The position numbers and the translations under genes are program-made. A stretch of DNA of 36,561 nt from a virus: positions 1-36,561 of the IMG/VR virus record IMGVR_UViG_3300037189_016610; one strand, written 5' to 3'. Shown one piece after another: positions 5,825-24,808 of this stretch. Every line of letters starts with the position of its first letter. Position 1 is the stretch's first letter. Below the pieces are notes generated by a model. That model did no database searches, was not told the origin of the DNA, and was given only the letters and a program-made list of their open reading frames with translations.

Positions 5825-5850
5825 TTCCGGGGGATCCATGTTGAACGAAG

Positions 5851-5880
5851 AAGGGCGGCCAATGGCCGCCCTTTCGCGTT
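5851..5880 (+). terminator. Integrase terminator
   Basis: A 10-bp perfect stem (5851-5860 with 5864-5873) has a three-base AAT loop and is followed by TCGCGTT, 27 bases after the integrase stop. It faces the leftward terminator about 80 bases further on, separating the convergent integrase and early transcripts. Confidence 0.75.
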
Positions 5881-5944
5881 CTCCCGGCTCGACTCCTCAG
5901 ACGGGCCCGTTGATATGCGCGCACCAAGATCGCCGCTTATATCG

Positions 5945-5979
5945 AACAAAAAACAAAGGGCGGGGATCCCTCCCCGCCC
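5945..5979 (-). terminator. Strong leftward terminator of the early operon
   Basis: On the minus strand GGGCGGGGA and TCCCCGCCC form a perfect 9-bp stem around GGGA, followed by TTTGTTTTTTGTT. It is the only strong terminator downstream of the leftward gene run from 11680 to 6063, so that run may be one long transcript. The remainder of 5881-6062 shows no gene. Confidence 0.85.
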
Positions 5980-6062
5980 CCAACCAAAACAAGAAACCGG
6001 AGAACATGGCCGAACCCGGTCGCTTATAAATAGGGCGGCTATCGAGGACCCGCGCCTTCGCC

Positions 6063-6341
6063 TCAATTGTTCTCGTTCAGTTTCGACCAACAACAACACC
6101 CGTCCTTTGCGGCAGCGGCTTGGTTCGCATCACGGGCGGCTTGGTTCAGGCGTTCCCGAATCTCCGCCTCCGGTAGATTGGTCAGGGAGAGGATATTCTT
6201 CTCCTTTCGATAGTACTCCGTTCGGATGGAATCATAGTCCTGTTGACAGTTCTCGTTCTTCTTGCAGGATACGAGCACCAAGACAAGAGCCACGAGATAG
6301 ACGGCCAATGCGCGGCCAAGGTTTGTGGTTGTGTTCTTCAT
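6063..6341 (-). CDS. Small lipoprotein
   Basis: A 92-residue protein with a classical lipoprotein signal: MKN start, a hydrophobic run at 11-24 and a lipobox LVSC with the lipidated Cys at 26. The mature part is a charged helix with an unusual C-terminal Cys cluster (DGCCCWSK). It is the last gene before the leftward terminator, overlapping the upstream gene by ATGA. The ATG at 6341 lies behind AATCAAA, the A-rich context seen elsewhere. Small phage lipoproteins serve as outer spanins or as superinfection-exclusion factors. Expression with early/accessory genes fits exclusion better than lysis, but this is inference. Confidence 0.8.
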   Translation of the reverse strand: MKNTTTNLGRALAVYLVALVLVLVSCKKNENCQQDYDSIRTEYYRKEKNILSLTNLPEAEIRERLNQAARDANQAAAAKDGCCCWSKLNENN

Positions 6342-7159
6342 TTTGATTCGGGTTGTTGGGTTGTTGTTTCGGGTTGTTGGGTTACGCGTTGCAGGATGGC
6401 GATGAATTTGGCGGTTGAGGCTTCGATTTTGTTCATTTCGAGTCTGCCTCCATTGACGAGCGCAATCGACGCATGGAGCGCGGCCGCTGCTATAGCGGGA
6501 TCGATACCGGTGCGGGCCGGAATAGGAGCGAATGATATCGGCGCATGCGACGAGGGGACCGGGGCGGGCGGCATAGCGGGAGCGGATGCCTTGGCGGATT
6601 GGATCTCGTCGGTCTTGGCGGGGCGGAACTTCCATCCATGGGGACCCTTGCTCACGGGTTCGGCCGCGTAATGGCGCGCGACGCCAACCGGGAAGAACTT
6701 CTCCCCGTTCTCCCTGCTCTTGCCCGTGTATTCGCCTGAGGTCCCGTCCTCCATCGTGACGACGAAATCGTACATCGTGCCGAACTTGTTCTTGAATTCC
6801 TTTTTGAACTCTACCGTCTTGACGGTATACTCTCCTATCCCTGCTTCGACTTGTTTCATTTTTGTTTGAAATTTGATTCCTGATTCCCGTTCCTGTTGTT
6901 CCCTCTTCGATCGATTCACTTGTTCGGTCCATTCCTCCGCCTCCCGGCGCAACTCCTCCGGGACATCCTGATCGGGCGAATGCACGAAATCCCATGTCTC
7001 CATGGCATGCCTGATGTATTGGCCCGAGGCGACCCCGTAACCGTGGAATCTCTGCCCATCCTGACTCGTCACGAGCACCCGGTAACCGTCGCGCGTACGC
7101 TCGACAACGCGACCGACGAGGGTTTCGCGTTCGTCTATCCGGGTCGCTTGCTCGATCAT
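6338..7159 (-). CDS. Hypothetical protein, possible OB-fold/ssDNA-binding C-terminal half
   Basis: A 273-residue protein. Residues 1-100 are basic and charged (LVGRVVERTRDGYRVLV, then a Glu/Arg-rich helix). Residues 101-175 are beta-rich (FGTMYDFVVTMEDGTSGEYTGKS, KFRPAKTDEIQ) and recall small OB-fold single-strand-binding proteins of Bacteroidota phages. Then come a Pro/Ala linker, a helix with KIEASTAKFIAILQ and a TTQQPE tail. An internal ATG at 6859 sits behind TTTCAAACAAAA, exactly the leader type used by neighbours, so a separate 173-residue product is likely. It is coupled by ATGA to the genes on both sides. The ssDNA-binding role is tentative. Confidence 0.6.
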   Translation of the reverse strand: MIEQATRIDERETLVGRVVERTRDGYRVLVTSQDGQRFHGYGVASGQYIRHAMETWDFVHSPDQDVPEELRREAEEWTEQVNRSKREQQERESGIKFQTKMKQVEAGIGEYTVKTVEFKKEFKNKFGTMYDFVVTMEDGTSGEYTGKSRENGEKFFPVGVARHYAAEPVSKGPHGWKFRPAKTDEIQSAKASAPAMPPAPVPSSHAPISFAPIPARTGIDPAIAAAALHASIALVNGGRLEMNKIEASTAKFIAILQRVTQQPETTTQQPESK

Positions 7160-7548
7160 TTCCCGGCGCGTACTTCCATTGTGACCGCGATCAGGTCCCG
7201 CAATCGGGCCGCTCGGAGATAATCCTCCGAGGCGACGGCCGCGTCGAGTAGACGGCGCATACGTTCGACCGTATGCTTCGGCTCCGGGAGGACGATCACG
7301 CTCGCGTTCGGATGGATCCCCTCGGGGCAATTGGTGCAATCCCGCGCCCGGATAACCTTCGCTCCCCGGTCCTCAAGATGTTTGATCGCCACCCGTCCGG
7401 GATAGGAGAGGCGATAAGTCTCCCGGTGGTACCATTCGATCGGGACATCGCGGCATGGGATCACGCGTGTATCGCGCTCGTCCGCTGCTGCAATCGCATC
7501 GCATACGATGGCGATCACATTGGATTTGATTGTTCTTTTCGTCTCCAT
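7156..7548 (-). CDS. Stand-alone UVR-motif protein
   Basis: A 130-residue protein. Residues about 98-122 (MRRLLDAAVASEDYLRAARLRDLI) match the UvrB/UvrC UVR helix-pair motif, which mediates contacts between UvrB and UvrC. A CxxC pair at Cys71 and Cys74 (RDCTNCPEG) may bind zinc. No ATPase or nuclease domain is present. The ATG follows an AACAACAACAACAA leader and the stop overlaps the next ATG. It might bind host UvrB/C or Clp-adaptor-like partners. The motif is clear; the function is inference. Confidence 0.65.
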   Translation of the reverse strand: METKRTIKSNVIAIVCDAIAAADERDTRVIPCRDVPIEWYHRETYRLSYPGRVAIKHLEDRGAKVIRARDCTNCPEGIHPNASVIVLPEPKHTVERMRRLLDAAVASEDYLRAARLRDLIAVTMEVRAGK

Positions 7549-7578
7549 GTCCGTCGATTGTTGTTGTTGTTGTCCGGT

Positions 7579-7887
7579 TCATTTACGATCGAAGATGTAT
7601 TCCGTCGCTGCGATTCTGTTGTTGTCGCGGTACATTTCCGTGCGCTCCGCATCGATCAACACGACATTGTGGGCGCTGAGTTCAACGATGAATCGCTTCA
7701 ACAACCCGATGTGCGTGTCGGGTATCGCGATCGCGAGGTAGCGCGCTACGCCGAAGTTGCGCTCGTGTATGTCGCAGCGGTTCACCGGGTCGCCCGCTTG
7801 GAGTTGGCGAATGATGTTGTCGAGCGATTCGTTCGAGGTAGTGAACGGGTCGATCTTTCTGTAAGTAGCCGTCTGTTCCATGTTCAT
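7579..7887 (-). CDS. Hypothetical protein, 102 residues
   Basis: A soluble alpha/beta protein beginning MNMEQTATYRKIDPF, first gene behind a candidate Bacteroidota-type promoter at 7900-7931. The leader ACACAAACAAAAA directly before the ATG matches A-rich translation starts. It is separated by 30 bases from the UVR-motif gene, so the two are probably co-transcribed. No family is recognised. Confidence 0.65.
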   Translation of the reverse strand: MNMEQTATYRKIDPFTTSNESLDNIIRQLQAGDPVNRCDIHERNFGVARYLAIAIPDTHIGLLKRFIVELSAHNVVLIDAERTEMYRDNNRIAATEYIFDRK

Positions 7888-7899
7888 TTTTTGTTTGTG

Positions 7900-7931
7900 T
7901 TAATATATAGTCCGCTTTTCTTCTTTTCCAA
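7900..7931 (-). promoter_or_regulatory. Candidate Bacteroidota-type promoter (leftward)
   Basis: On the minus strand TTG (7931-7929), a 21-base spacer and TATATTAA (7907-7900) approximate the TTG / TAnnTTTG elements, in an AT-rich stretch. The start codon follows 12 bases after the -7 element. The -7 match is imperfect (6 of 8). Confidence 0.5.
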
Positions 7932-7968
7932 ACATTTCCCAAAATTAAATCTCCCGGCCCCAAATCCA

Positions 7969-8008
7969 CAAGTCCGAGTTCCCAACAGATGTGGGATCCT
8001 CCGACTTG
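7969..8008 (-). other. Intergenic hairpin
   Basis: CAAGTC pairs with GACTTG in an outer stem with one mismatch, and CCCA pairs with TGGG inside it. It lies between the 8019-8670 genes and the promoter at 7900-7931. No T-run follows on the minus strand, so it may be a weak terminator or an mRNA 3'-end structure. Confidence 0.4.
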
Positions 8009-8018
8009 TCCAATTCGA

Positions 8019-8132
8019 TCATCCTGCTATATTGACGCGCGCCCGTTCCATATCCTTGGGGAGACCCGAGAAGAGCTTACGGGGCATCACCCGGATATGT
8101 TGCCCGAGCGTCTTATCCGCGCCGATCGCCAC
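8019..8132 (-). CDS. Possible 37-residue protein with GTG start
   Basis: It starts at a GTG inside the last codons of the upstream gene (20-base overlap) and has protein-like composition (MPRKLFSGLPKDMERARVN). The frame is open further upstream with a CNLCGTRDSC stretch inside the 8113-8670 gene. It is kept only as a tentative call because no motif or clear leader supports it. Confidence 0.25.
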   Translation of the reverse strand: MAIGADKTLGQHIRVMPRKLFSGLPKDMERARVNIAG

Positions 8133-8670
8133 GGCACGGAGGCACGAATCCCGCGTCCCGCATAGATTGCAGGATGTCGCGCTTCCCCTCTCGATCGCAG
8201 GCACGATAACGGGCCAATCGCTCCGGATCGTTCTTCGCAAAATACCTCAGGACCGCCGCACGGAAGCGGGTCTCCTCCCGGTTCGCCGCGTAATGCGCCC
8301 GACAATAGTCGCGATGCCATGCACGGACCGCCTCGTCGAGGGAGACAACATTCCCGCTCGGATATTCGTTCGACATTTTCCGGGCGAGCGATTGCTCGAA
8401 TCGTTCCTTGGCATCCTGTTTTTTTTGCAAATCAATCTCCTCCGGAGAGAGCCGAGGAACGGGCCGCCCCGCTCTATCGCGCTCGCGCTCCCATACGTTC
8501 AGCATCCCGGCCAACTCGGCGTGAGTCTCGAACTGGCGGTACGACTCGAATCCCGACCGTACGGCCTCATTCAGGGGGATGCGTTGGCCGCGCTCCAACG
8601 ATGCCCACGCGTCCTCGGGGTCGAGGTCGGTGATCAGGTAGGGTTTCCGAGCATATGGGCGGGACGACAT
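8113..8670 (-). CDS. Hypothetical protein, 185 residues
   Basis: A charged, helical protein. The N-terminal part (DLDPEDAWASLERGQRIPL) resembles the start of the neighbouring 79-residue protein (TPEEAWRLIERGGIP), so the two share a module. A Cys/His-bearing helical stretch follows (HRDYCRAHYAANREETRFR). The ATG at 8670 lies exactly 5 bases after a TATTTA box, which helps fix the start. No enzyme motif is seen. Confidence 0.65.
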   Translation of the reverse strand: MSSRPYARKPYLITDLDPEDAWASLERGQRIPLNEAVRSGFESYRQFETHAELAGMLNVWERERDRAGRPVPRLSPEEIDLQKKQDAKERFEQSLARKMSNEYPSGNVVSLDEAVRAWHRDYCRAHYAANREETRFRAAVLRYFAKNDPERLARYRACDREGKRDILQSMRDAGFVPPCRGDRRG

Positions 8671-8675
8671 ACAAT

Positions 8676-8682
8676 TAAATAC
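8676..8682 (-). promoter_or_regulatory. TATTTA box before the 8670 gene (leftward)
   Basis: The minus strand reads GGTATTTA, ending 5 bases before the ATG at 8670, the same spacing as at 20567, 21487, 24821 and 34369. Function is inferred from this repeated placement. Confidence 0.55.
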
Positions 8683-8685
8683 CTG

Positions 8686-8925
8686 TCACCCCCGAGCCTC
8701 AAGATAGGCCGCCATTTGGGCTCTGAGACGTTCGGTCCGTTGCGCGGCCGTCAGACTCTTAGCGGGCAACGGTTCGCCCGTCTCCCGCGCCAAGACAGCA
8801 CGGGACAGGTCGAGGTTCATCGAGATCTCGGGCTCCCAACACGATAGACGCTCGCGCTGATAGACGATTCCGTCCGGGATCCCGCCCCGCTCAATCAGAC
8901 GCCAAGCCTCCTCCGGGGTTATCAT
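8686..8925 (-). CDS. Hypothetical protein, 79 residues
   Basis: The ATG at 8925 lies inside the end of the upstream zinc-motif gene (35-base overlap). The N-terminus MITPEEAWRLIERGGIP is similar to the N-terminal module of the 8113-8670 product, suggesting paralogy by local duplication. The C-terminus is a basic helix (TAAQRTERLRAQMAAYLEARG). No function is recognised. Confidence 0.6.
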   Translation of the reverse strand: MITPEEAWRLIERGGIPDGIVYQRERLSCWEPEISMNLDLSRAVLARETGEPLPAKSLTAAQRTERLRAQMAAYLEARG

Positions 8926-9319
8926 CGATCCCCGAGGAGGGCGGGGTTTTCTTTGCTTTTTGCCGCTCGCGATATCGGCGGTTCGCTTCGTTTCGTCGTT
9001 CACGGAATTCGTTGTATTTCGCGGGATCTTTCTTGATCTCCGTGTACTTCTTGGCCTTGGCCTTACGGTGATATTCCCGGATCTGCTCCAGCCGCTCCGG
9101 ATCATTCGCGCGGATGTGATCCCTCCTCTTGCGTTGCTGCTCCATCATTTTTTCGCGGCGCTCCGGGGAGAGACGCTCGACCTCCCGGCGGTTGCGGCAC
9201 GCGCGGCACATCCGCATCGAGCAGACGTATCCGTTGATCATTTTCAAAAAATCCTCGATCGGATGGACGCACAAGCATTCCCAGCATTCTTTGAACGCGG
9301 TATCGGTGTTCCGGTTCAC
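8891..9319 (-). CDS. Zinc-ribbon-like protein (HNH-type N-terminal module without HNH)
   Basis: A 142-residue protein starting at GTG 9319, overlapping the upstream stop as GTGA. Cysteines at 12, 15 and 17 and then 33, 38 and 41 (CWEC ... CSMRMCRAC), with a Phe24 between, resemble the zinc-binding domain found before HNH nucleases in many phages. The rest is a very basic, Tyr-punctuated helix (REYHRKAKAKKYTEI). No HNH catalytic His-Asn-His is visible, so nuclease activity is doubtful and nucleic-acid binding is more likely. Confidence 0.65.
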   Translation of the reverse strand: MNRNTDTAFKECWECLCVHPIEDFLKMINGYVCSMRMCRACRNRREVERLSPERREKMMEQQRKRRDHIRANDPERLEQIREYHRKAKAKKYTEIKKDPAKYNEFRERRNEANRRYRERQKAKKTPPSSGIDDNPGGGLASD

Positions 9320-9672
9320 TTCTCCGAGGTATGTTTCGCCGATCCATTCGACCCGATAGCCGGGCCCCCGATCTCCTGCTCGATCTCCGCCTCCACCTCC
9401 GCCGTGATCGTCAGGCGAACCCGGTCGATCGTCTTGCCCTCGCACATCGCGAGAACGAGGCGGTCGATGGATTCCTGATTCGGCTCGTTCCGATGCGTGA
9501 ACTGTTCTCCATCCACATCCATCGTCAGGGATCGGACCTGAGACGGATACGGGAGACGCTCCATCGCGACGGACCCGACCGAGTCCAATCCACGGAATGA
9601 GACGAGCCCGTTGCGGAATTGGAGTTCGCCCGACTTGGCGTCGATCACCGTGCTTTGATAATTATACTTCAT
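9316..9672 (-). CDS. Hypothetical protein, 118 residues
   Basis: A beta-rich small protein beginning MKYNYQSTVIDAKSGELQF, with a Glu-rich C-terminal part (TAEVEAEIEQEI). It is coupled by ATGA to the 49-residue gene upstream and by GTGA to the zinc-ribbon gene downstream. The ATG is behind AACAACAACAGAACAAGAA. No membrane segment or known motif was found. Confidence 0.65.
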   Translation of the reverse strand: MKYNYQSTVIDAKSGELQFRNGLVSFRGLDSVGSVAMERLPYPSQVRSLTMDVDGEQFTHRNEPNQESIDRLVLAMCEGKTIDRVRLTITAEVEAEIEQEIGGPAIGSNGSAKHTSEK

Positions 9673-9818
9673 TTCTTGTTCTGTTGTTGTTGGTTCTTCT
9701 CCGGGACCTTCAATTCCTCGGGCTCCGTTCCCTCCAAGAAATCCAGCATCGCCATCATCTTCCTGAACCGTTCCCGGCGATCGGCGATGTCCTGTTGGAG
9801 TTGGGATTCTTCCGTCAT
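9669..9818 (-). CDS. 49-residue protein, duplicated small gene (copy A)
   Basis: A helical, charged peptide (MTEESQLQQDIADRRERFRK...) ending QQQQNKK. It is coupled by ATGA at both ends. Its first 20 residues match the 27-residue gene at 10138-10221 (MTKEETQLQQDIADRRARFRK), and the coding DNA shares a 33-bp identical block exactly 400 bp apart. Copy A has an extra C-terminal segment. Function is unknown. Confidence 0.6.
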   Translation of the reverse strand: MTEESQLQQDIADRRERFRKMMAMLDFLEGTEPEELKVPEKNQQQQNKK

Positions 9819-10141
9819 TGGTGCGGGGTATCATTTACGCCGCCCTCAGGTGCGGGACGGTCGGGATTGTTGAGCGCGAGCAACACGTGAGCGATGCCAG
9901 CAAGGGGCGCAAACACGATAACGAGAACCCACAACGGGAAGCGGTCGAGTCTCTTGTTCCGGTTGTGTTCGCCCTCGTTCACGTTCGGCCAGCGACCGAA
10001 CCGGATTCGATACTTCAGGTCGTCCCATACCCATATCGGGCGATAGAGCAGGAGTCCCCACGGAGTCAACGGGCGCAACTCGCACGGGCCCGCGTCTGGA
10101 TGCGGATCTTCATTCGGATTGTGGCGATCGTCTGCTCTCAT
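9815..10141 (-). CDS. Small membrane protein with long soluble N-terminus
   Basis: A 108-residue protein. A Pro/Asp-rich polar N-terminus is followed by an aromatic stretch (LLLYRPIWVWDDLKYRIRFG) and one clear membrane span at about 70-91 (LWVLVIVFAPLAGIAHVLLA). The tail is DRPAPEGGVNDTPHQ. The DRPAP-GGVNDT tail recurs in the 10624-10932 product, and NDTPHQ ends the 10218-10517 product. ATGA couples it to both neighbours. Function is unknown. Confidence 0.65.
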   Translation of the reverse strand: MRADDRHNPNEDPHPDAGPCELRPLTPWGLLLYRPIWVWDDLKYRIRFGRWPNVNEGEHNRNKRLDRFPLWVLVIVFAPLAGIAHVLLALNNPDRPAPEGGVNDTPHQ

Positions 10142-10221
10142 TTCTTGTTCCTTATCATCTTCCGGAATCGTGCCCGGCGATCGGCGATGTCCTGTTGGAG
10201 TTGGGTTTCTTCTTTGGTCAT
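10138..10221 (-). CDS. 27-residue protein, truncated paralogue (copy B)
   Basis: It reads MTKEETQLQQDIADRRARFRK and ends IRNKK, closely matching the first 20 residues of the 49-residue gene 400 bp away. It is coupled by ATGA to the genes on both sides, so it is positioned like a true cistron. It may be a duplicated remnant kept for translational coupling. Confidence 0.5.
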   Translation of the reverse strand: MTKEETQLQQDIADRRARFRKMIRNKK

Positions 10222-10517
10222 TGGTGCGGGGTATCATTATTGCTGGGAGGTTCGAGTCCATTGATCAAGATCTCCTCTCCGTCCGCCGTTGTCCATAGTA
10301 GGCTCTTGGCATATTCGTACTCCGGGTGATAGTCACCTTCGATCCAGATGATCCATCCATCGGCCATCCGATAGCCGAACATCTTCTTCGACGCGATCAG
10401 GTCGATAGCCTTCTGATCGACGGCCGCGAGTTCATACTCTTCTCTCATCAGATGGAGTTCTCTTCGGTCCTCGAACGTCTGGTTCTGTAGCGCATAGATG
10501 AATTGTTTTGTCTTCAT
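10218..10517 (-). CDS. Hypothetical protein, 99 residues
   Basis: A soluble protein beginning MKTKQFIYALQNQTFEDRRE, with a Trp/Tyr-rich middle (WIIWIEGDYHPEYEYAKSL). Its C-terminus NDTPHQ is the same as in the 9815-10141 product, because the DNA around both 3' ends is duplicated. The ATG follows CCTCAACAGAA. No family is recognised. Confidence 0.65.
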   Translation of the reverse strand: MKTKQFIYALQNQTFEDRRELHLMREEYELAAVDQKAIDLIASKKMFGYRMADGWIIWIEGDYHPEYEYAKSLLWTTADGEEILINGLEPPSNNDTPHQ

Positions 10518-10553
10518 TTCTGTTGAGGTTGTTCGGATTGTGGTCGTCCGTTC

Positions 10554-10658
10554 TCACTTCTTGTTCCTTTTCTTGGCCATCGACTTCCGGGCCGCGACAC
10601 GCTGCCGGAGTTCTCCTCCGGTTCTATTCCTCTGACGCTCTTTTGTTGTTGGTATCAT
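10554..10658 (-). CDS. 34-residue basic peptide
   Basis: It starts at ATG 10658 inside the end of the upstream gene (35-base overlap) and ends in RKSMAKKRNKK. That 11-residue C-terminus is identical to the end of the 136-residue protein at 11270-11680. The AAC AAG AA(A/G) TGA ending also closes the other small genes of this run. Probably one of a family of duplicated short basic cistrons; function is unknown. Confidence 0.45.
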   Translation of the reverse strand: MIPTTKERQRNRTGGELRQRVAARKSMAKKRNKK

Positions 10659-10932
10659 TTACGCCGCCCGAGGGTGCGGGACGGTCGCTGTTGTCATTGT
10701 CCTCGTATACATCCTCTCTCCATTCGCCCGATGCGACCTCGGTCAACACGACCGCGTTGGAGATCTCGAACAAGCGATTGCAGGAGCACAGGAAGAGCGG
10801 ATTCTTGCCCGGCGGATCGCTGATGTATCGATAGGGGTCGATGTGCGATAGCTCTCCGCATTCGCATCGGATGTCGATGCACAGGTCCGCGTTCTTCCAC
10901 TGGTGGGATGCGGTTGTCTTGTTGGAGTTCAT
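10624..10932 (-). CDS. Zinc-ribbon-like protein
   Basis: A 102-residue protein with two cysteine knuckles: RCECG (Cys23 and Cys25, with Cys18 just before) and LCSC (Cys49 and Cys51), spaced like a small zinc ribbon. An acidic tail (EDVYEDNDNSDRPAP) follows. The ATG at 10932 overlaps the upstream stop as ATGA. Nucleic-acid or protein binding is likely; no catalytic motif was seen. Confidence 0.6.
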   Translation of the reverse strand: MNSNKTTASHQWKNADLCIDIRCECGELSHIDPYRYISDPPGKNPLFLCSCNRLFEISNAVVLTEVASGEWREDVYEDNDNSDRPAPSGGVNDTNNKRASEE

Positions 10933-11246
10933 TTCGCGGTCGTGTTGGAATTGTTGGGATCGCTTGGAGGTGCGGGATTTTCGTTGATTGTTGGAATGTC
11001 GAACACGCTTCCGTGATCGACCCCGTCGATCGTCCATATAGCGCGTTCATAGAATTCGATCGGATCATAGTCAATCTCGACGTTGTGCTTTCGCATCAGA
11101 GCGGATAGTTCCATCAGGAAGGGAGCAATCCTTTCAGCACGTTGTGCCTTCGCGATGCGCTCCGCTTCCATATTGCGTTCCCATTCCTCATTGTCCCGGT
11201 GAGAGACCTTGCCGATATACTTGTTTAGTTGTTCTTCGTTGATCAT
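10929..11246 (-). CDS. Hypothetical protein, 105 residues
   Basis: A helical, charged N-terminal half (NMEAERIAKAQRAERIAPFL) is followed by an acidic segment and a Pro/Asn-rich tail. The start ATG 11246 follows ACCGAAAACCT. It is coupled by ATGA to the zinc-ribbon gene. No family is recognised. Confidence 0.65.
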   Translation of the reverse strand: MINEEQLNKYIGKVSHRDNEEWERNMEAERIAKAQRAERIAPFLMELSALMRKHNVEIDYDPIEFYERAIWTIDGVDHGSVFDIPTINENPAPPSDPNNSNTTAK

Positions 11247-11269
11247 AGGTTTTCGGTATTAGCGCTCGG

Positions 11270-11680
11270 TTATTTCTTATTCCGCTTCTTGGCCATCGAC
11301 TTCCTCGCGGACTCGCGCTGCTTCTCGGCGTTCGCTTCGTCCTTGATCCATTCCCGGCGGTATTCGCGCTGATATTTGCGTGATTCCTCCGCGTGGTCCT
11401 TCGCCCATTTCCTGCCTCGCTCCGTGCGTCTCTCATAGGTCGCGATAATCTCATCGGCGCTCTTTGTTCTCGTATGCGAGCGCTCGCCCTGACCCGGAAT
11501 ACGGAGCACGGTAGCGGTCTTGAGCTTTCTGGCGGCCACAGCCTTGGCCACCTGCACGGTGACGGTGTGTATGGTGCATCCCATCGCCAAGGCGATGGCG
11601 GTGAACGTCTTGTCGAGGTATTCGGGGTTCGCCAAGACGAAGGCGAGCACGTCGTGTTTTGGTGGTCTTCCGGTTCTCAT
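11270..11680 (-). CDS. HTH-type DNA-binding protein, first gene of the leftward operon
   Basis: A 136-residue basic protein. Residues 1-12 (MRTGRPPKHDVL) and 24-50 (KTFTAIALAMGCTIHTVTVQVAKAVAA) look like a small helix-turn-helix module. The rest is a strongly basic helix (RKYQREYRREW) ending RKSMAKKRNKK. ATG 11680 is used because the leader ACAAATCAAAAACCT directly precedes it and a TATTTA box ends exactly 20 bases upstream; an ATG-less extension exists to 11710. As the first early gene, divergent from the replication block, it may be a regulator. Confidence 0.6.
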   Translation of the reverse strand: MRTGRPPKHDVLAFVLANPEYLDKTFTAIALAMGCTIHTVTVQVAKAVAARKLKTATVLRIPGQGERSHTRTKSADEIIATYERRTERGRKWAKDHAEESRKYQREYRREWIKDEANAEKQRESARKSMAKKRNKK

Positions 11681-11686
11681 AGGTTT

Positions 11687-11717
11687 TTGATTTGTATCAA
11701 TAAATAGCATATTTTTC
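11687..11717 (+). promoter_or_regulatory. Rightward promoter candidate in the divergent early region
   Basis: TTG (11687-11689), a 20-base spacer and TATTTTTC (11710-11717) match 7 of 8 positions of the Bacteroidota -7 element. It would transcribe the gene at 11757 and the iteron/replication region. It overlaps the leftward box at 11701-11707, so the two directions may compete. Confidence 0.55.
11701..11707 (-). promoter_or_regulatory. TATTTA box for the leftward operon
   Basis: The minus strand reads CTATTTATTG, with TATTTA ending exactly 20 bases before the ATG at 11680. The same 20-base spacing occurs at 20624 and 35071. Confidence 0.5.
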
Positions 11718-11756
11718 CTGAAATCCGAGGAAGGAGGAGATATTTATTTTTGTGCC

Positions 11757-11981
11757 ATGGACAGAATGCAACGCGATCGATTGGAGCGGCTCGGGTTCGC
11801 CGTGGTGACTCCGGAGAGAGTTATCCATCCCCACCGAGGAACTCTCCTCGTTGTGGCCGTACATCGGGAGCGAACGGAATTGGTCGCGCTCGACGGCGGG
11901 AAATGGTTCTTCGATGGGAGGTTCGCGATGGGGAAGTTCGTGGCGGAGGACAGGATCAACGCTCACCTGTCCACGGAATAG
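11757..11981 (+). CDS. Hypothetical protein, 74 residues
   Basis: It starts MDRMQRDRLERLGFAVV and contains beta-prone segments (TLLVVAVHRERTELVAL, GGKWFFDGRFAMGKFV). A box ATATTTA at 11740-11746 ends 10 bases before the ATG, and a promoter candidate lies 40 bases upstream. It is divergent from the leftward operon and just left of the iterons. Position suggests an early regulatory or replication accessory role; no family is recognised. Confidence 0.6.
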   Translation: MDRMQRDRLERLGFAVVTPERVIHPHRGTLLVVAVHRERTELVALDGGKWFFDGRFAMGKFVAEDRINAHLSTE

Positions 11982-12054
11982 GATTGCCCGGTCCGGGGCC
12001 GCTATCCCATACGCGCGGGCCATGGCGGGAACTGCCCTCCGATACGCCCCGAAC

Positions 12055-14388: not shown

Positions 14389-14440
14389 ATATTTACATCA
14401 GACGTGAGGCTCTGTGGTGGTGCTCTGATCGTCTTTTTTG
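14389..14440 (+). ncRNA. Possible short structured transcript
   Basis: A box ATATTTA (14389-14395) is followed by AGACG (14400-14404), which pairs with CGTCT (14430-14434), directly before a run of T. That gives a box, a folded segment of about 35 bases and a terminator-like tail with no open reading frame. It might be a small RNA, or simply a first, weak terminator of the replication operon. Confidence 0.25.
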
Positions 14441-14442
14441 CG

Positions 14443-14476
14443 GAATCCCTCCCCTAACGGAGGGATTCTTCTTTTT
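14443..14476 (+). terminator. Terminator of the replication operon
   Basis: GAATCCCTCC (14443-14452) pairs perfectly with GGAGGGATTC (14459-14468) around CCTAAC, followed by TTCTTTTT. It separates the initiator operon from the nuclease/sigma-like operon. Confidence 0.88.
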
Positions 14477-14528: not shown

Positions 14529-15062
14529 ATGAAGATCGTCCTACGCGACGCGCTGATCGACTTCGCGCGTCTATCCCACATCTATTCCTCGACAACGATC
14601 TCGCCCGATAACGATCAGGGGAGATACATCCGTCAGGAGACCGCGATCCGGCTCCGCCTGTTCGATGTGCTCTCGAAGGACCCGCACATCACCAAAATCC
14701 TCTGCACCGACCCCTATCAGGACGACGGCCGTCTATGCGTGTTCGACATGTTCCTCGTCTCGGGCGGGACCGAATACCTCCTCGAAGGGAAGGAACGCAA
14801 CTCCGGATCGACCGCCGTGTCCTCTTGGGGGATCGAATCGGTCAAGGCCGACGAGCTGCTCGAAGTATCCCGTCGCAAGTCGATCGGCGTGCTATGGGCG
14901 AGCCTCCATACCGACGGTGTCTGTCTGATTTGGCCCATCGGAGCGCCGTCCTATGCGCGCAAACGCCTCTGCGACCGCAAGACCTTCGAGCCGGGACTCG
15001 GCAAGATCCCGAAGGAGTTCCGTGATTATCCCGTCCGCAACGCAATCCGTCTCCACCAATGA
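14529..15062 (+). CDS. PD-(D/E)XK-type nuclease
   Basis: A 177-residue protein with the core of a restriction-endonuclease-like fold: Asp73 in VFDMFLV, then Glu86 and Lys88 in YLLEGKER, separated by one beta hairpin as in the D...ExK motif, preceded by an alpha helix. Proteins of this size in phage replication/late-regulation blocks are resolvases or packaging-related nucleases. The ATG follows CGACAAAATCCACCACAA. The stop overlaps the next gene by ATGA. The fold is probable; substrate and role (Holliday junction resolution is one option) are inference. Confidence 0.65.
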   Translation: MKIVLRDALIDFARLSHIYSSTTISPDNDQGRYIRQETAIRLRLFDVLSKDPHITKILCTDPYQDDGRLCVFDMFLVSGGTEYLLEGKERNSGSTAVSSWGIESVKADELLEVSRRKSIGVLWASLHTDGVCLIWPIGAPSYARKRLCDRKTFEPGLGKIPKEFRDYPVRNAIRLHQ

Positions 15063-15730
15063 GCGCCGATAATTGCCTCCCATGGAGCGGGGAGAACTAT
15101 CGGGACCCGCGCGAGGAACGACTCTCGGCGTCCTCCATCGATCACGCCTATCGCCTGCTATCGACCTCCCCGGTGATACGTCAGATGTACCGGGCCAATG
15201 CGTTACCCAAATGGCATGGAGCGGAGTTCTACGCCGAAGCGATCCAAGACCTGTCGCTTACCCTGTTGTGCAAGTTCTCCGCTTCGACGGACGGCTTTCT
15301 TTCCTTCTTCAATGGTAGTTATTTCAACTATTGGTTAATCCGCTACTTCCAAAACACCCATCGGAGCGCCTCCTCGAAGTTCGCCCGGCGTTGGAGAGAA
15401 CATGGCGACCTCGACGAGATGTTCGAGGAGCCTCAATCGCACGACCGCCCGTTCGATGTGGTCCCGCAAATGCGCAACGTCCGTCTGTGGGACTTCGATG
15501 TGATCCGGTGGCGTCTGTTGGGATCCCCCATCTTCTCGGGATTCACATCGAGCCAAAAGGAGACGTACCTCACGTATTTACAGGAGAGCGCCACGATGGG
15601 AAAGAAGGTCAAGCTCCGCCCATTTGCGGAGCGCCATGGCATCCCGTACGATATCGTGCTCCGGTTGGTGGTGAAGATCAACCGAATGATGATAGACCGC
15701 ATCCGTGAACTCGAAAAACTCGACCAATGA
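15059..15730 (+). CDS. Sigma-factor-like protein, candidate phage promoter recognition factor
   Basis: A 223-residue protein. Residues 57-112 (AEAIQDLSLTLLCKF..., YWLIRYFQN..., SSKFARR) follow the pattern of sigma-70 region 2: an acidic helix, core-binding and -10-reading segments ending in basic residues. Residues about 164-215 (SSQKETYLTYLQ..., LRPFAERHGIPYDIVLRLVVKI) resemble a region-4 helix-turn-helix followed by a helical tail. Size fits a minimal phage sigma. It is coupled by ATGA on both sides. It could direct host RNA polymerase to the TATTTA boxes upstream of late genes. The similarity is by pattern and not strong, so a divergent regulator is possible. Confidence 0.5.
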   Translation: MSADNCLPWSGENYRDPREERLSASSIDHAYRLLSTSPVIRQMYRANALPKWHGAEFYAEAIQDLSLTLLCKFSASTDGFLSFFNGSYFNYWLIRYFQNTHRSASSKFARRWREHGDLDEMFEEPQSHDRPFDVVPQMRNVRLWDFDVIRWRLLGSPIFSGFTSSQKETYLTYLQESATMGKKVKLRPFAERHGIPYDIVLRLVVKINRMMIDRIRELEKLDQ

Positions 15731-16785: not shown

Positions 16786-16792
16786 GTATTTA
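16786..16792 (+). promoter_or_regulatory. TATTTA box upstream of the small terminase gene
   Basis: GTATTTACC on the plus strand lies 112 bases before the terminase small subunit ATG, with nothing coding between. It is also 8 bases outside the leftward HEPN-like start. Weaker than the boxes with fixed spacing. Confidence 0.35.
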
Positions 16793-16904: not shown

Positions 16905-17519
16905 ATGCCCCAACTCCCCTCCTTCCGAGCCCTCTCCCCGTCTCACCAAGCATTCGTCTCGGCATACATCCGGAACGATTGCAACGCCGTTCGCGCGCTC
17001 GATCAATTGAAGCCGGGGGAAACTCACGAGGTGCAAGTCCGAAGGGGTTGGAAACTTCTCCAACGTCCTGACGTGAAGCTCGCGATCGGGGATCTCCTCG
17101 ACCGTCAGGCGGAGAAACACCTCCTGTCCCGCGAGGACATGCTCCGGGAGCTATACGAACTCATAAGCCGGGCCAACGGGCTACCCGATGCCGGGCAAAA
17201 ACTTTCGACCCTGAAGTTCTCGAAGGATGTGCTCGATTCCATGGCGAAGGTTCTCGGGTACAATAGTTCGACGGTGAACCAAACCGGAGGACAGGAGATC
17301 ACCGTTCAACTCGTCGGCATGGGCGGGGTTGCCGGTGCCGTAAATCCTACCATCCCTCCGGTTGATATTGAGTTAACGCCCGAGGAGCCGCCTGTTCAAT
17401 TGGAACTCTCGTTCCCGCCGAGCGACCCCATCCCGTTCGACCTATCGGACCTCGACGAGATCTCTGATCCGCCCGAGGATTTGCCGGACCCCGATGATTC
17501 CCTCCCCTTCGAGGATTGA
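16905..17519 (+). CDS. terS: Terminase small subunit
   Basis: A 204-residue protein. The first 130 residues show the Terminase_2-type layout: a helical DNA-binding start (LSPSHQAFVSAYIRNDCNAVRALDQL), a segment of stacked helices with RPDVKLAIGDLL, then SREDMLRELYELISRA, and an oligomerisation region. The last 70 residues are very acidic and Pro-rich (DLSDLDEISDPPEDLPDPDD), perhaps to contact the large subunit. It recognises phage DNA and recruits the large subunit. The leader GAAAAAAAACTCTCC precedes the ATG. Unusually, the large subunit is 1.7 kb away on the opposite strand. Confidence 0.75.
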   Translation: MPQLPSFRALSPSHQAFVSAYIRNDCNAVRALDQLKPGETHEVQVRRGWKLLQRPDVKLAIGDLLDRQAEKHLLSREDMLRELYELISRANGLPDAGQKLSTLKFSKDVLDSMAKVLGYNSSTVNQTGGQEITVQLVGMGGVAGAVNPTIPPVDIELTPEEPPVQLELSFPPSDPIPFDLSDLDEISDPPEDLPDPDDSLPFED

Positions 17520-19238: not shown

Positions 19239-20567
19239 TCAGAACCGGACAACGTCCACCCGGAACTCCTTACGGCGGAGCAGGAAGAGCATCCGCTGAG
19301 ACACGCAATCGGACAAGTCCGGGGAACGACCGATGATCCGGGCGACTTGGCTCTTTGGCAGGATAGCCGCATTCTGATCCGTGTCGGTCCGGTAGCTCTT
19401 ATGGGCGATCAACTCCTCGGCAAGCTCCTCGCGTATCTCCGGGCAACGGAATCGGATCTCTCCCTTCGCTATCGCCTCGGACAAGCGGAAATATAGTTGG
19501 TCCTTCAGGGTAGCATAACCCGCTCCGTCGAGCGGTCTCGCGTTCGCCCGGTAGTCGAAGCATCCCCGGAACTGAGAGACCAAGGCCGCCGAACCTATTC
19601 CGTCGATCGAAACGTTCCGGGCCGGTACCTGATTCTCCGAGATGATCCGCCTCACGTCCTCGACCTGAGCGGATGCGTCCCTCTTGCGCCAAACCCAAAC
19701 CCGCTCCATGCTCATTCCCTGCCATAACATCACGACCGAGCGATCCCCGCCCCCATACGCCGGATCCCATGTGAGGAACTTCCCTTTCAGGTCTACGCCT
19801 TCGGGGGACCAATCGAACGCGTTGGCGATATCCGAGATCGTGAAGCAATCCCGGTCCCCTCTCTCATAACGCCAATTCCCGAGGATCTGACTTTCCCAAA
19901 TGAACTCGTCGAAGTTCTCCCGGACGAGGGTAGCCCGGAACCGTTCATCGAGGAATGGGTTCTCGAATTGCGTGCATGGTATATAGCGGATGTTCTTCGG
20001 GAGGGTTCCCTTCTCCCATTGGTCGAAGAAGTCGAAAACGTAGTTCCGGGAAGGGTTGCTACAGAGAAGGATCTTCGGGCCGAAGGGCGGGCAATTGTAC
20101 CTCAGTCGAGTTAGGAGGGTCTGATAGACGAGCCGCTCGGTCTCCCCGGATTCGTCCACGGCCGCGAAACTCAATTCGAGCGACCCGATCTCCTGAAAGG
20201 TTTCGTCTCCTTTCGGATCGACTTGGCGGAGCAGGATCTTCGAGCCGTTCGGCAACTCGATCACCTTGCGTTGTTGATTGTATCCCGCCCGGAGCGTCTG
20301 CTCTATTCCCATGGAGCGGGCAACCCGCCAAAGGGATTCCAAGGTCGTCGCGATAAGGTCGGCGTATACCTTACGGCATATCAGGTATTTCGTATCGGGA
20401 TAAGTGAAAGCCGCCCAAAGAACGAAGGCCGCGATCAGGACGGACTTTCCGCCGCCCATGGCACCGCCGTAGACCACGGTCAAAACCGAGGGATCCTTCA
20501 GGGCGAGAAAGGCCTCCTCTTGTTTTCGATGGAGTTTGAATTGATTGAGGGTCGGCGCGTTGCTCAC
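19239..20567 (-). CDS. terL: Terminase large subunit
   Basis: A 442-residue packaging motor. The ATPase domain has the Walker A GGAMGGGKS (34-42) and a Walker B AAVDESGE (about 135-142). The C-terminal RNase H-fold nuclease has Asp268 (TWDPAYGGG), Asp322 (SIDGIGS) and Asp417/Asp420 (SPDLSDC). Length is normal. The start is GTG at 20567, exactly 5 bases after a TATTTA box, divergent from the tail operon. It pumps DNA into proheads and cuts concatemers. It is unusual that this gene is separated from its small subunit by a regulatory cluster and lies on the other strand. Confidence 0.93.
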   Translation of the reverse strand: MSNAPTLNQFKLHRKQEEAFLALKDPSVLTVVYGGAMGGGKSVLIAAFVLWAAFTYPDTKYLICRKVYADLIATTLESLWRVARSMGIEQTLRAGYNQQRKVIELPNGSKILLRQVDPKGDETFQEIGSLELSFAAVDESGETERLVYQTLLTRLRYNCPPFGPKILLCSNPSRNYVFDFFDQWEKGTLPKNIRYIPCTQFENPFLDERFRATLVRENFDEFIWESQILGNWRYERGDRDCFTISDIANAFDWSPEGVDLKGKFLTWDPAYGGGDRSVVMLWQGMSMERVWVWRKRDASAQVEDVRRIISENQVPARNVSIDGIGSAALVSQFRGCFDYRANARPLDGAGYATLKDQLYFRLSEAIAKGEIRFRCPEIREELAEELIAHKSYRTDTDQNAAILPKSQVARIIGRSPDLSDCVSQRMLFLLRRKEFRVDVVRF

Positions 20568-20571
20568 GGGA

Positions 20572-20604
20572 ATAAATACCCCGCACCGAGCGGGAGGTAT
20601 TTAT
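20572..20604. promoter_or_regulatory. Divergent late promoter pair (two facing-away TATTTA boxes)
   Basis: Two boxes form a near-palindrome: ATAAATACC-CCGC (20572-20584) and GCGG-GA-GGTATTTAT (20590-20604). The left box serves the terminase large gene (5 bases to its GTG) and the right box the tail operon (20 bases to ATG 20624). The symmetry could also be a single dimer-binding site. Confidence 0.65.
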
Positions 20605-20623
20605 CGGAGACCAACCTCAAGCA

Positions 20624-21295
20624 ATGAAACAAGTCGAAGTCAACTCTCGCGTGATCTCCATCCCGTCCTCCGTTTGGGAAATGGACCTCGGTCCCTTCCT
20701 CGACGTTATGACGGAACTCCAACAACGGGCCGCCGATCCTGAGGGCGACTCCCTGCTCCATCAAATGCGACTCGTGAGTTACATCACCGGCCTACCCTTG
20801 TCGGAGATCGAGGAACTTCCGTTCCCGGCGTTCGTGCAATTGGCGGAGTTGGCCACCCTCGACGAGATCGTTCTCCCGGAGGTCGTCACCCCGGACGAAG
20901 CGGGTCTCGACGAATCGCGCAAACCGATCTCCTTCCAAGTGACGGACGAACACGGAACCGTTCACGAATTCGCCTTTCAACCCGACTTCGTTATGAACAA
21001 GGTCAAGCACGTATCGAAGGCGGAGGATATACTCCGGGGCATGGATCTTATGGCGAACCTCCATCGGTTGCTCGCTCTGACCGCATGGCGCGAGGGCGAA
21101 ACATTCAACGAGAACACGCTTGAAGAAAAGAACCGCCTGATGTGCCGAGCCAAAATGTCGGAGGTCTATCGCCCGCTCTTTTTTTTTGCTCTTCAAGGAC
21201 GCGGCTCTTCACTGTTCACGCGGCTCTTTTCAAGGGACAAAGCGACGGCGGTCGAGCCGACAAGATCAATCAGAAATGGGGATGGTACCGCGTAA
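20624..21295 (+). CDS. Tail assembly chaperone, short (G-like) form with -1 frameshift site
   Basis: A 223-residue product in the unshifted frame. It starts MKQVEVNSRVISIPSSVWEM and is helical and acidic. A run of nine T (21179-21187), read CTC TTT TTT TTT GCT, contains the slippery form T TTT TTT. A -1 slip there joins the first 188 residues to an 87-residue frame ending at 21450, giving a 275-residue long form. This copies the G/GT arrangement of lambda-like tails, where both forms coat the tape measure during tail assembly. It lies first in the tail operon, as expected, though the tape measure is 8.7 kb downstream. A homopolymer sequencing error would produce the same picture. Confidence 0.72.
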   Translation: MKQVEVNSRVISIPSSVWEMDLGPFLDVMTELQQRAADPEGDSLLHQMRLVSYITGLPLSEIEELPFPAFVQLAELATLDEIVLPEVVTPDEAGLDESRKPISFQVTDEHGTVHEFAFQPDFVMNKVKHVSKAEDILRGMDLMANLHRLLALTAWREGETFNENTLEEKNRLMCRAKMSEVYRPLFFFALQGRGSSLFTRLFSRDKATAVEPTRSIRNGDGTA

Positions 21296-21450
21296 CGTCG
21301 GACCTATTGGGGGAAGGGTTCGGGTCTACATTGGCTGAAGTAGGCGAGGCTCGCGTTGGTGAAGTCCTCGAACATCTTTCCTATCTCAAGGATATGAGCG
21401 CGGTCGAACGCATGCGCCAAGACGCGGCCTCCGGGACCGTTAGGCATTGA
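21187..21450 (+). CDS. Tail assembly chaperone T-domain, expressed by -1 frameshift
   Basis: It follows the nine-T run in the -1 frame and has clear protein character (KINQKWGWYRVTSDLLGEGF, then LEHLSYLKDMSAVERMRQDA). No start codon with a normal leader precedes it, and it ends 36 bases before the next gene, so translation as a fusion to the upstream frame is the simplest reading. It would be the part that binds the tail tube protein. Confidence 0.68.
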   Translation, partial: CSSRTRLFTVHAALFKGQSDGGRADKINQKWGWYRVTSDLLGEGFGSTLAEVGEARVGEVLEHLSYLKDMSAVERMRQDAASGTVRH

Positions 21451-21474
21451 GGATCGAGCCCGAGACGCGTCGCG

Positions 21475-21481
21475 ATATTTA
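21475..21481 (+). promoter_or_regulatory. TATTTA box before the 21487 gene
   Basis: GATATTTA with TATTTA ending at 21481, exactly 5 bases before ATG 21487. Confidence 0.5.
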
Positions 21482-21486
21482 AGGCA

Positions 21487-24279
21487 ATGGCAAACCAATT
21501 CCGTTCGATCACCCCTCGGGGGATCCATGCCCTCCTCGAAACGCTCTCCGGGGCGGATCCGCGTATCGCCTCCTTCCGCTTGGGGGACTTTGCGCAAAGC
21601 GAAATGAAGGTCGATGATCAATACCCGGCGATCCTTTACGAATTGATCGACTCGAAGATCCTCGGTCCGGAACGCGGGAACGAGCAACGCAACGAATGGA
21701 GCCTCCGCCTCTATTGCTTCACGATGCGCCGGGCGGATTCGGAGAACGTTGTGGACGCCATGGCCGAGACCCATAACCTGCTCACGGATCTCGTGCTCCG
21801 TTTCAAATCGGAGCAGGCGTTCAAGGATTGGGGGATCCGATTCCTACCGAACGCGAACGTCCGTTTCGATTACGTGCTCATCCAAGACCGCGACGACCTG
21901 ATCGGCACGAGCTGCGAAATCGTGTTCACGACGGCTCTCGCAGGATGTCCGGACGATCTCCTCGGGTACGGTACGCTCCCGGATGTAGGGCTCTACTATA
22001 GCGCCTCAACGATCACTCGTCCCTCCTCATACCTGACATGCGCCACCCTCTCGGGTTGTTCGACATGGACCACGACGATCGCCTCCATCGATACGCGTCT
22101 CGACGCGTTGGAGGCCGCTACGGGATCCACGTTTGATTGTGCTGCCCTGTTGTCTTGTCCTGACTTCCTCGCCTTGTCCGCACGGACGGAGTCGAACGGA
22201 GTCTCGATCCTCGCGTTATCGGCAACAACACAAACGCACACATCGGAAATCGCCCTGCTCTTAACCCTTACGGGAGGAACGGGAACAACAACCTATGTTC
22301 AAGACGGAGTCAATACCTACACAGGAGGAACGGCTTCACGTCCAACGGTCAATCTGAACGACTACATCGAGATCGAGCGGATGTCGGCAACCTATACGGG
22401 GTTCCTCTCGACGATTACCGCTTCCAACCAAGGAACGGGATACGCGATCGAGGCGACCAGCGAGAACGGGACAGGAGCCTTGATCTACTCACAGAACGGG
22501 ATGGCTCTCCAAGTCACCGCATCGGATTCAGGCAACACGGAGGACATCGCGCACTTTGAAAACAGCAACGCTCAGGGACTCCACATCAACAACGATGGCT
22601 CCTTGACTTGGACATCCCCTACCGGAGCCGCTAGCACAAGGACCAACCTCGGGATCAACAACACCTACGTTCAGCCCGGAACCAATATCACCACCGGAGG
22701 AACGGCATCCGCTCCAACGGTGAACCTCGTTGATTCCCCTTCTATCACGAACCTCATCGCCTCTGGAGTCGTGTATGGAGTCACCTTATCGGGAGGAACG
22801 ATCTACTCGGGAGGAACCAACATCCAGAACCTGTTCGCTCCAATCGGCTCGGGCGGATCAGGCGGAGTCGGAACTCTGGAGCAGGTAACGGCAAGCGGCA
22901 ACACAGCGAATCGCTCCATCTACCTCCAAGGGAACGGATCTTCTTTTGATCTCGTCCGTAAGGTATACTTCAAGGACACGGACCCGACGCTCTCCGGTTC
23001 GTCCGACGCATCGGTCGGCATCGATTACGCCATCGCTGGAGGTCCGAGTCTCGTGCTGGAGTCTCCATCCTCTGTGTTTGCTGTCGGTGGACCATCTCTC
23101 GTGGATGTCTCCTCCATTCCGTCCGTCACGGATTGGTTCTCGGTCAACGACCGCCAAGGTGTTGCTGGGGCGATCGGGTTCGGATTCCTATCGGCCGCTA
23201 CCGTTGACCTGAGAGCATTCGGATATCTCCGCCTCGGGTCCAACGCAAAGGACGGCTCCGGTATCCAAGGTTCGGCCTTCTTGGTGGCATCCGGCCTGAC
23301 CGATACAAGACTCGTCTCCCTGCCCGACAAGTCCGGGACGATCGCCTTCCTCGATGATCTCGTCGCGGGAACAACGACCTACGTCCAACCGGGAAGCAAT
23401 ATCACCACAGGAGGGACCCCGTCCGCTCCCATCGTGTCGGTGGTCTCTTCCCCTTCGTTCGTGAACCTCACGGCCACGACCCTACAGGAAACAACCTTCG
23501 TCACTCCCGGAGGGGTATATTATCGCGGCCCGTCCGGGACCTTGACGGCGAACCCGGATTTCACCTTCGATGAGGACGCGGTCGCTCTTCAGGTTCTCGG
23601 AACCGTATCGGCTTCTACTTTCTTCGAGGGATCCCTGTCGCTCGCCTCGAAGTATGCGCCAATCTCGGTTGTCCCGACCTACGTCCAACCGGGAACGAAC
23701 ACAATAACGGGGGGAACTATCACGCGTCCGACCGTCAACTTGGTTGCGTCCCCATCTGTCACCAACCTGACGGCGTCCGGTGTGGTGTATTGCGCAACAG
23801 TATCCGCTGACACACACTATCAGGGATCCGACCTACAGGCCAGCACGCGGATGGTCCGCCTGACCGGGGATGTCACCAGCAATTCCGCGAGCTATGTTGA
23901 TGTGACGGGTCTGTCATTCACGGTGGACGCGAACACATCCTACTTCTTTGAATTCACGATATCCTACCTGTCAAGCGGAAACACCACAGGCGCGGGATTC
24001 AGCGTCACCGGTCCGTCATCGCCTGTGCTTTGTTCGGGCAGGATGGACGGGCACCAAAGCGCGGGCAATTATCCCCAGTTCATCACGGGATATGATACCG
24101 GCGCGGCTGCTGGTTCTGTGGCCATTGCCAACGCTGTGTACACGGCGATGATCCGTGGCAATTTCGTGAACGGGGCCAACGCGGGAACGCTGAAGGCCCG
24201 CTTCCTGCGTGGTGGTACGGCTGGCGTCAACATTACCGTCCGGGCTGGATCAAGCGGAAAGATCACCAAGACCTCTTAA
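21487..24279 (+). CDS. Tail protein fused to fibre-like repeat region
   Basis: A 930-residue protein with two parts. Residues 1 to about 165 form a compact alpha/beta domain (FGDFAQSE-like start, WSLRLYCFTMRRADSENVVDAM, SCEIVFTTALAGC) that resembles a tail-terminator or neck-type protein. The rest is Gly/Ser/Thr-rich, with a motif of the type YVQPGxNxxTGGTxSxPTVNL at about residues 268, 391, 628 and 730, often followed by SPSxTNLxASGVVY. This is typical of fibrous adhesin shafts. The C-terminal 130 residues look like a globular beta head. The same motif occurs once in the 26272 protein. It probably mediates host binding; the fusion is unusual. Confidence 0.7.
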   Translation: MANQFRSITPRGIHALLETLSGADPRIASFRLGDFAQSEMKVDDQYPAILYELIDSKILGPERGNEQRNEWSLRLYCFTMRRADSENVVDAMAETHNLLTDLVLRFKSEQAFKDWGIRFLPNANVRFDYVLIQDRDDLIGTSCEIVFTTALAGCPDDLLGYGTLPDVGLYYSASTITRPSSYLTCATLSGCSTWTTTIASIDTRLDALEAATGSTFDCAALLSCPDFLALSARTESNGVSILALSATTQTHTSEIALLLTLTGGTGTTTYVQDGVNTYTGGTASRPTVNLNDYIEIERMSATYTGFLSTITASNQGTGYAIEATSENGTGALIYSQNGMALQVTASDSGNTEDIAHFENSNAQGLHINNDGSLTWTSPTGAASTRTNLGINNTYVQPGTNITTGGTASAPTVNLVDSPSITNLIASGVVYGVTLSGGTIYSGGTNIQNLFAPIGSGGSGGVGTLEQVTASGNTANRSIYLQGNGSSFDLVRKVYFKDTDPTLSGSSDASVGIDYAIAGGPSLVLESPSSVFAVGGPSLVDVSSIPSVTDWFSVNDRQGVAGAIGFGFLSAATVDLRAFGYLRLGSNAKDGSGIQGSAFLVASGLTDTRLVSLPDKSGTIAFLDDLVAGTTTYVQPGSNITTGGTPSAPIVSVVSSPSFVNLTATTLQETTFVTPGGVYYRGPSGTLTANPDFTFDEDAVALQVLGTVSASTFFEGSLSLASKYAPISVVPTYVQPGTNTITGGTITRPTVNLVASPSVTNLTASGVVYCATVSADTHYQGSDLQASTRMVRLTGDVTSNSASYVDVTGLSFTVDANTSYFFEFTISYLSSGNTTGAGFSVTGPSSPVLCSGRMDGHQSAGNYPQFITGYDTGAAAGSVAIANAVYTAMIRGNFVNGANAGTLKARFLRGGTAGVNITVRAGSSGKITKTS

Positions 24280-24282
24280 TCC

Positions 24283-24806: not shown

Positions 24807-24808
24807 AA

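Follow-up and report, generated by a model that had tools for sequence, protein, structure and literature searches.

Start-codon-proximal TATTTA boxes form a promoter-like network in a Bacteroidota-type tailed phage with relatives that carry other boxes at the same genes

The phage and its TATTTA boxes

The DNA analysed here (the window) is the virus record IMGVR_UViG_3300037189_016610, of 36,561 bases, with a GC content of 54-59% in 2-kb steps, in which gene starts were assigned manually on the open reading frames, without a trained gene finder. The gene at 15059-15730 (+) encodes a putative sigma-like protein of 223 residues, and its start is overlapped by the gene at 14529-15062 (+). Downstream of it are found the genes of the terminase small subunit (16905-17519 (+); phrog_51, E 8.9e-8) and large subunit (19239-20567 (−); phrog_2, E 1.6e-30), the latter on the strand opposite to the small subunit gene and to most structural genes. 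Judged by their matches, the terminase, portal, tape measure and replication proteins, along with the terminase relatives and the integrase, mark the phage as a Bacteroidota-type tailed phage: the best full-length matches of the terminase among phage records, at approximately 30% identity, are mostly to Bacteroidota phages, and the integrase weakly matches domains that we take to be typical of Bacteroidota. A search for Rfam families found none. Over the whole window, the hexamers CTTGGC/GCCAAG (57 copies, 12.8 expected) and those of the ACAACA type (42-50 copies, 6-10 expected) are over-represented.

The hexamer TATTTA is present 15 times in the window, against 4.26 copies expected and a maximum of 10 in 100 shuffles, and is the commonest A/T-only hexamer after poly-A. 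Its neighbours ATTTAT, ATATTT and TTATTT are found at their expected counts, and TATTTA alone is strongly over-represented among the commoner mixed A/T hexamers. Fourteen of the 15 copies fall outside gene calls, that is, in 9.6% of the window (1.2 expected; maximum 5 in 500 shuffles), and 13 of these 14 are followed on their own strand by a gene start. The gap from box to start is exactly 5 bases at five genes (8670, 20567, 21487, 24821 and 34369) and exactly 20 bases at three (11680, 20624 and 35071), the remaining gaps being 7, 10, 33, 112 and 133 bases. TATTTA followed after five bases by ATG or GTG occurs six times (0.076 expected; maximum 1 in 500 shuffles), the sixth case being the box at 11741, where a GTG is also present at the 5-base gap. 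The signal is nearly all-or-none, with a perfect box or nothing close: 11 of 40 gene starts have an exact box within 40 bases, four a match at five of the six positions and 25 four matches or fewer. The base before the box is G in 9 of 13 boxes. A sequence-only reading of this DNA had listed eleven boxes, all of which are present at the coordinates and on the strands it gave, and its gaps of 5 and 20 bases were reproduced. It had also noted that no −33 element is shared, and the k-mer search likewise yielded no −33/−35 element, the best 3-, 4- and 5-mers upstream of the boxes being no better than those of shuffles. Its list missed the intergenic boxes at 14390 (+) and 16787 (+), and the copies at 6027 (−) and 15575 (+) were likewise absent from it. 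That the pattern is a by-product of chance or base composition could be suspected from the hand-called gene starts and from a box of only six bases; it is contradicted by the shuffles (15 copies against 4.3, 14 against 1.2 between genes, 6 against 0.08 at gap 5), and the idea hardly deserves credence.

The leftmost box (709-714 (+)) lies 7 bases before gene 722, and that at 8676-8681 (−) lies 5 bases before the start at 8670 (−). A divergent pair is formed by the boxes at 11701-11706 (−), 20 bases before the start at 11680 (−), and 11741-11746 (+), 10 bases before 11757; another is formed by those at 20573-20578 (−), 5 bases before the terminase large subunit start at 20567 (−), and 20598-20603 (+), 20 bases before 20624. 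Both divergent pairs are inverted repeats (AATAAATA..TATTTATT at 11699-11748; ATAAATACC..GGTATTTAT at 20572-20604), so that the two putative promoters of each pair would be near mirror images. Further to the right, all on the plus strand, are the boxes at 21476-21481 (5 bases before 21487), 24810-24815 (5 bases before the tail gene 24821), 30074-30079 (33 bases before the tape-measure gene 30113), 34358-34363 (5 bases before the head maturation protease gene 34369) and 35045-35050 (20 bases before 35071). Greater distances separate the box at 16787-16792 (+) from the terminase small subunit gene (112 bases) and that at 14390-14395 (+) from gene 14529, which precedes the sigma-like gene (133 bases). 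A T-run within approximately 50 bases after the latter box (14390-14450) may end a hairpin terminator, and a transcript from this box may therefore not reach gene 14529. The copy at 15575-15580 (+), in the 3′ part of the sigma-like gene and 146 bases before the next gene, is of doubtful function. Presumed early genes are also preceded by boxes (8676, 11701 and 11741), as is gene 14529 next to the sigma-like gene (14390). Neither the major capsid gene nor the portal gene has its own box, and TATTTA is missing before overlapping genes inside operons.

A position so close to start codons would also suit a translation signal, namely an A/U-rich stretch that guides ribosomes to the start in Bacteroidota, where Shine-Dalgarno pairing is not used. 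The 5-base gap corresponds to the distance of a ribosome site, and in Flavobacterium the nucleotides upstream of a start, in particular an A at −3, matter for its use (PMC6847099). The Start Associated Sequences of Cluster K mycobacteriophages, for which a translational role has been proposed, are likewise repeated, mostly one-directional motifs placed 3-7 bases before starts; they differ in their 13-base sequence (GGGATAGGAGCCC), in host and in being associated mostly with non-structural genes (PMC3203893). TATTTA was rejected as a sequence of this class, the place being similar and the sequence unrelated to GGGATAGGAGCCC. As for a translational role in general, some boxes lie as far as 20, 33, 112 and 133 bases from starts, enrichment is seen for the exact hexamer but not for other A/T hexamers, and the overlapping operon-internal genes are without a box. 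On balance a translation signal, the second rival to the promoter reading discussed below, appears improbable.

Even less probable, to the point of being very unlikely, is a role of the boxes as binding sites of a phage regulator, in the manner of operators or stoperators, or as the U-tracts of intergenic terminators. Like mycobacteriophage stoperators, they are short, point mostly in one direction and are located between genes, and a fairly strong hairpin lies just upstream of four of them (14390, 20573, 20598 and 24810). However, neither function needs an exact 5-base spacing to start codons, and for the boxes as a set there is no clear hairpin excess (mean z −0.43, versus −0.15 at random places). 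Moreover, five of the 13 boxes (11701, 11741, 16787, 20573 and 20598) lie between divergent genes and have no gene of their own strand immediately upstream, a placing that best suits a start signal.

Relatives with other boxes at shared genes

No close relative of the window was found by megablast with bases 1-12000, by single-protein scans of IMG/VR with the 15059 sigma-like product, the terminase and the capsid protein, or by tblastn against phage records with the sigma-like product and the capsid protein, and GTDB contigs yielded a single terminase match, at 26% identity. An alignment of terminases led to 80 distant loci, and from the records of these loci came the nearest relative, G005 (IMG/VR IMGVR_UViG_3300046004_001785), which is collinear with the window and has a GC content of 32%. 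It has in common with the window the tail proteins 24821 and 26272, the protease, the portal, genes 2506, 113 and 14529, and the terminase. A second tail-protein scan returned G005 again and nothing else, and a protease scan matched only AT-rich, more distant phages. The GC-rich terminase relatives G008 and G032 have no TATTTA excess of the kind seen in the window, and in G008 no obvious box network was found.

TATTTA is not enriched in G005 (79 copies, 93 expected). Its box is ATAATTTA followed after zero to three bases by ATAAA, found eight times against 0.15 expected and in all eight cases upstream of late genes; in six copies AAAC precedes ATAATTTA at a distance of exactly 15 bases (0.1 expected). 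The leftward genes of G005 carry host-type TAnnTTTG boxes, unlike its late-gene box, so that two promoter classes can be distinguished in this genome. In freshwater phages, found via the tail protein, ACAATATAGG followed by T or C directly abuts the ATG; the pattern ACAATATAG, then G or T, then T or C, touching the ATG, marks three to four genes in each of the best loci and almost never arises in shuffles. Their boxed starts include the orthologues of the protease gene 34369 and of the tail gene 24821 of the window, and these two genes have a start-adjacent box in all three lineages, that is, the window, G005 and the freshwater phages. Thus, box position is common to the lineages and the letters differ, in disagreement with the sequence-only reading, which had described a conserved TATTTA; the relatedness of the boxes across lineages is judged from position only, because their sequence is not conserved. 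The boxes of the relatives have an upstream partner element at fixed or nearly fixed spacing, a pairing that also speaks against a translation signal.

A third group, L232, has TTATAGG, similarly placed, before two starts. At L232:9968 and L232:14084, ACGTTTATAGG followed by T or C and TATG is found at gene starts, with AACAAAA upstream; it may be a fourth type of box. Between TA and TTT lie two bases in the host-type TAnnTTTG, one in TAATTTA of G005 and none in TATTTA (window 11741 and 24810; L092:1960), which may be a coincidence.

The product of the gene at 15059-15730

The 223-residue product, which had been called sigma-like from sequence alone, has no informative match in Pfam or PHROGs, where no profile of sigma region 2 or region 4 matches it, and no match was found by tblastn in phage records. 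Gene 14529 is related to L088:833-1366 (BLASTP E 2e-7) and to a gene of L109 (phmmer E 9.6e-6); its homologue in G005 directly precedes and overlaps the gene of a 248-residue sigma (PF04542, E 5.9e-11), and that in L109 sits two genes before a sigma-like gene. The 15059 gene thus has the place of the sigma genes of two relatives, G005 and L109; its product may correspond either to the 248-residue sigma of G005 or to the protein of the 180-residue sigma-like gene there. For its membership among the sigma proteins, gene order is supporting, and does not define it alone. In G005 two sigma-like genes are found in a row at 21812-23261 (L093:6812-8261), the first being the 248-residue one with PF04542 and the second a divergent one of 180 residues. 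The family of 180-residue sigma-like proteins recurs in approximately 50 loci, and in many freshwater phages a box lies inside the 3′ end of the gene of this type.

In an alignment of the window protein with the sigma-like proteins of relatives (A4), in which it shows 10-16% identity, the relatives weakly match PF08281, PF04542 and phrog_1740. A profile of the set, dominated by the relatives, retrieves sigma chains from the PDB, and the window protein in a one-to-one comparison gave an hhalign E of 0.14. A single-sequence AlphaFold2 model was poor (pLDDT 48); with A4 the mean pLDDT rose to 65, with residues 150-223 at 77-95, in a model steered by relatives that had been picked for sigma-like features and hence possibly biased. 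Region-2-like helices are predicted at approximately residues 55-115 and a region-4-like helix-turn-helix at approximately 146-222. In Foldseek searches of the PDB with this model, ranks 1-7 were all chains of initiation complexes, ranks 1-5 and 7 being Mycobacterium tuberculosis SigH (rank 1 a chimera), with E values of 0.13-0.5; in BFVD, rank 1 was a Bacillus phage sigma-E (E 0.025, probability 0.97). The overall rmsd of the fold matches is high because domain packing is uncertain. The C-terminal domain gave a Z score of 6.3 to domain 4 of Staphylococcus aureus sigma-A, among other helix-turn-helix proteins. No fold match is significant alone, and it is together with gene order that the fold matches make a sigma-like role the likeliest for this protein; such a role is moderately supported.

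Putative late promoters, of phage or host type

We infer, from sequence comparisons, that the boxes are promoters, where their transcripts would start, and that the 15059-15730 product may read them. To the full reading, that is, promoters consisting of a −10-type box only, with leaders of zero to a few bases, read by the host polymerase carrying the 15059-15730 sigma-like protein, we give slightly better than an even chance. TATTTA boxes would be the −10/−7-type elements of phage promoters, which RNA polymerase would bind without a fixed −35 element, starting approximately 5-7 bases downstream. In Flavobacterium psychrophilum the box of sigma-A spans positions −12 to −5, and approximately 5.5% of the mRNAs with mapped starts have no leader (PMC9723704), most mRNAs of F. 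johnsoniae having leaders (PMC6847099). With a sigma-A-like geometry, the gap-5 boxes would give transcripts that start at the start codon or beside it, so that at these five genes the 5′ end would fall on the start codon or one base before it, yielding leaderless or near-leaderless mRNAs, and short leaders would result at genes with other gaps. A occupies 3 of the 25 spacer bases between box and start at the gap-5 genes, compared with 51 of 145 (Fisher p 0.021), which fits a spacer that is not an mRNA leader, five genes being a weak test. Specificity would most likely be supplied by the 15059-15730 product as an ECF-like sigma of two domains; its gene lies in the rightward operon, immediately ahead of the packaging genes, and the protein would redirect the polymerase of the host to operons with structural and packaging functions. 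Against this reading, the model of the protein keeps a region-4-like domain though no −35 element was found.

The main rival is that the boxes are promoters read by a host sigma, primary or ECF, while the 15059 product has another function, for example Q-like antitermination or activation. In its favour, boxes also occur ahead of presumed early genes and of the operon leading to the sigma-like gene, the protein is without a sequence-level sigma match, and some A4 members match phage antitermination Q-like profiles. Furthermore, the box at 11741 overlaps TATTTTTG (11745-11752), a perfect match to the Bacteroidota sigma-A −7 consensus. This is the only box that TAnnTTTG overlaps. TAnnTTTG, the sigma-A consensus of Bacteroidota, is not enriched in the window (4 copies, 5.9 expected). 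E. coli-type promoters are not above chance in 20500-36561. With the sigma-A promoters of Bacteroidota (TTTG/TAnnTTTG; PMC6847099, PMC9723704) the boxes would have in common the expected host polymerase and some leaderless mRNAs; they differ in that TA and TTT are adjacent rather than two bases apart, in ending in A and in having no −33 element. TATTTA as a promoter of this type (TAnnTTTG with TTTG at −33) was rejected, there being no enrichment, a single overlap and no shared upstream element. A host sigma is also disfavoured by G005, where the late-gene box is unlike the host type before the leftward genes, and boxes at a dozen operon starts are too many for a Q-like factor, which acts at one or few sites. 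Overall, we regard this rival as unlikely, if worth serious attention.

As parallel for the preferred reading, with a phage sigma, T4 late promoters (TATAAATA, read by gp55) had been put forward, and they are indeed promoters of late genes with only a −10-type box. T4 gp55 is a minimal sigma that works with gp33 and the gp45 clamp. It is not the best parallel, because in the 15059 product a C-terminal region-4-like helix-turn-helix is confidently modelled; moreover, the box is TATTTA, not TATAAATA. A better fit is gp36 of the E. coli podovirus phiEco32, an ECF sigma that reads the motif tAATGTATAtA 6-8 bases before the transcript starts of several operons (PMC4281155). In both phages a small sigma, here predicted, would go with a repeated −10-type motif at several operons, which in phiEco32 are those of middle and late promoters. 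The motif and the host phylum are different, and gp36 was recognised as a sigma by sequence, whereas the 15059 product was not. We know of no start-codon-locked placing in phiEco32. With these differences, its ECF sigma may be taken as the closest working parallel.

As far as sequence can tell, the promoter-like network is real and unusual, and its principle, rather than its letters, is common to the relatives. What had been claimed as a promoter network stands in so far as a promoter-like signal near start codons is well supported by the statistics and by two lineages; a purely late network served by a phage sigma only is too simple, because some boxes stand in front of presumed early genes (8676, 11701 and 11741). 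The different boxes of the relatives at the same genes suggest that each has its own promoter code for late genes and probably its own polymerase specificity factor. More tentatively, and as a possibility that we consider rather doubtful, there may be a lineage of Bacteroidota tailed phages with near-leaderless late mRNAs and start-codon-locked boxes, in which the letters (TATTTA, ATAATTTA and ACAATATAGG) would have been rewritten in step with a fast-diverging phage sigma, leaving each with a private late-promoter code.

Phage sigma systems with −10-only promoters are already known elsewhere. As far as we found, what would be new is the locking of a box to the start codon, the presence of such an arrangement in Bacteroidota phages and a box that differs from lineage to lineage; nothing was found in the open-access literature on late promoters or sigma factors of phages in Bacteroidota, and the control of late transcription in these phages appears to be little described. 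If true, the proposed arrangement would help to locate late operons in phages that have not been cultured. It would also provide a naturally occurring series of sigma factors and promoters that have changed in concert, and an example of near-leaderless mRNAs from a phylum with ribosomes that do without Shine-Dalgarno pairing.
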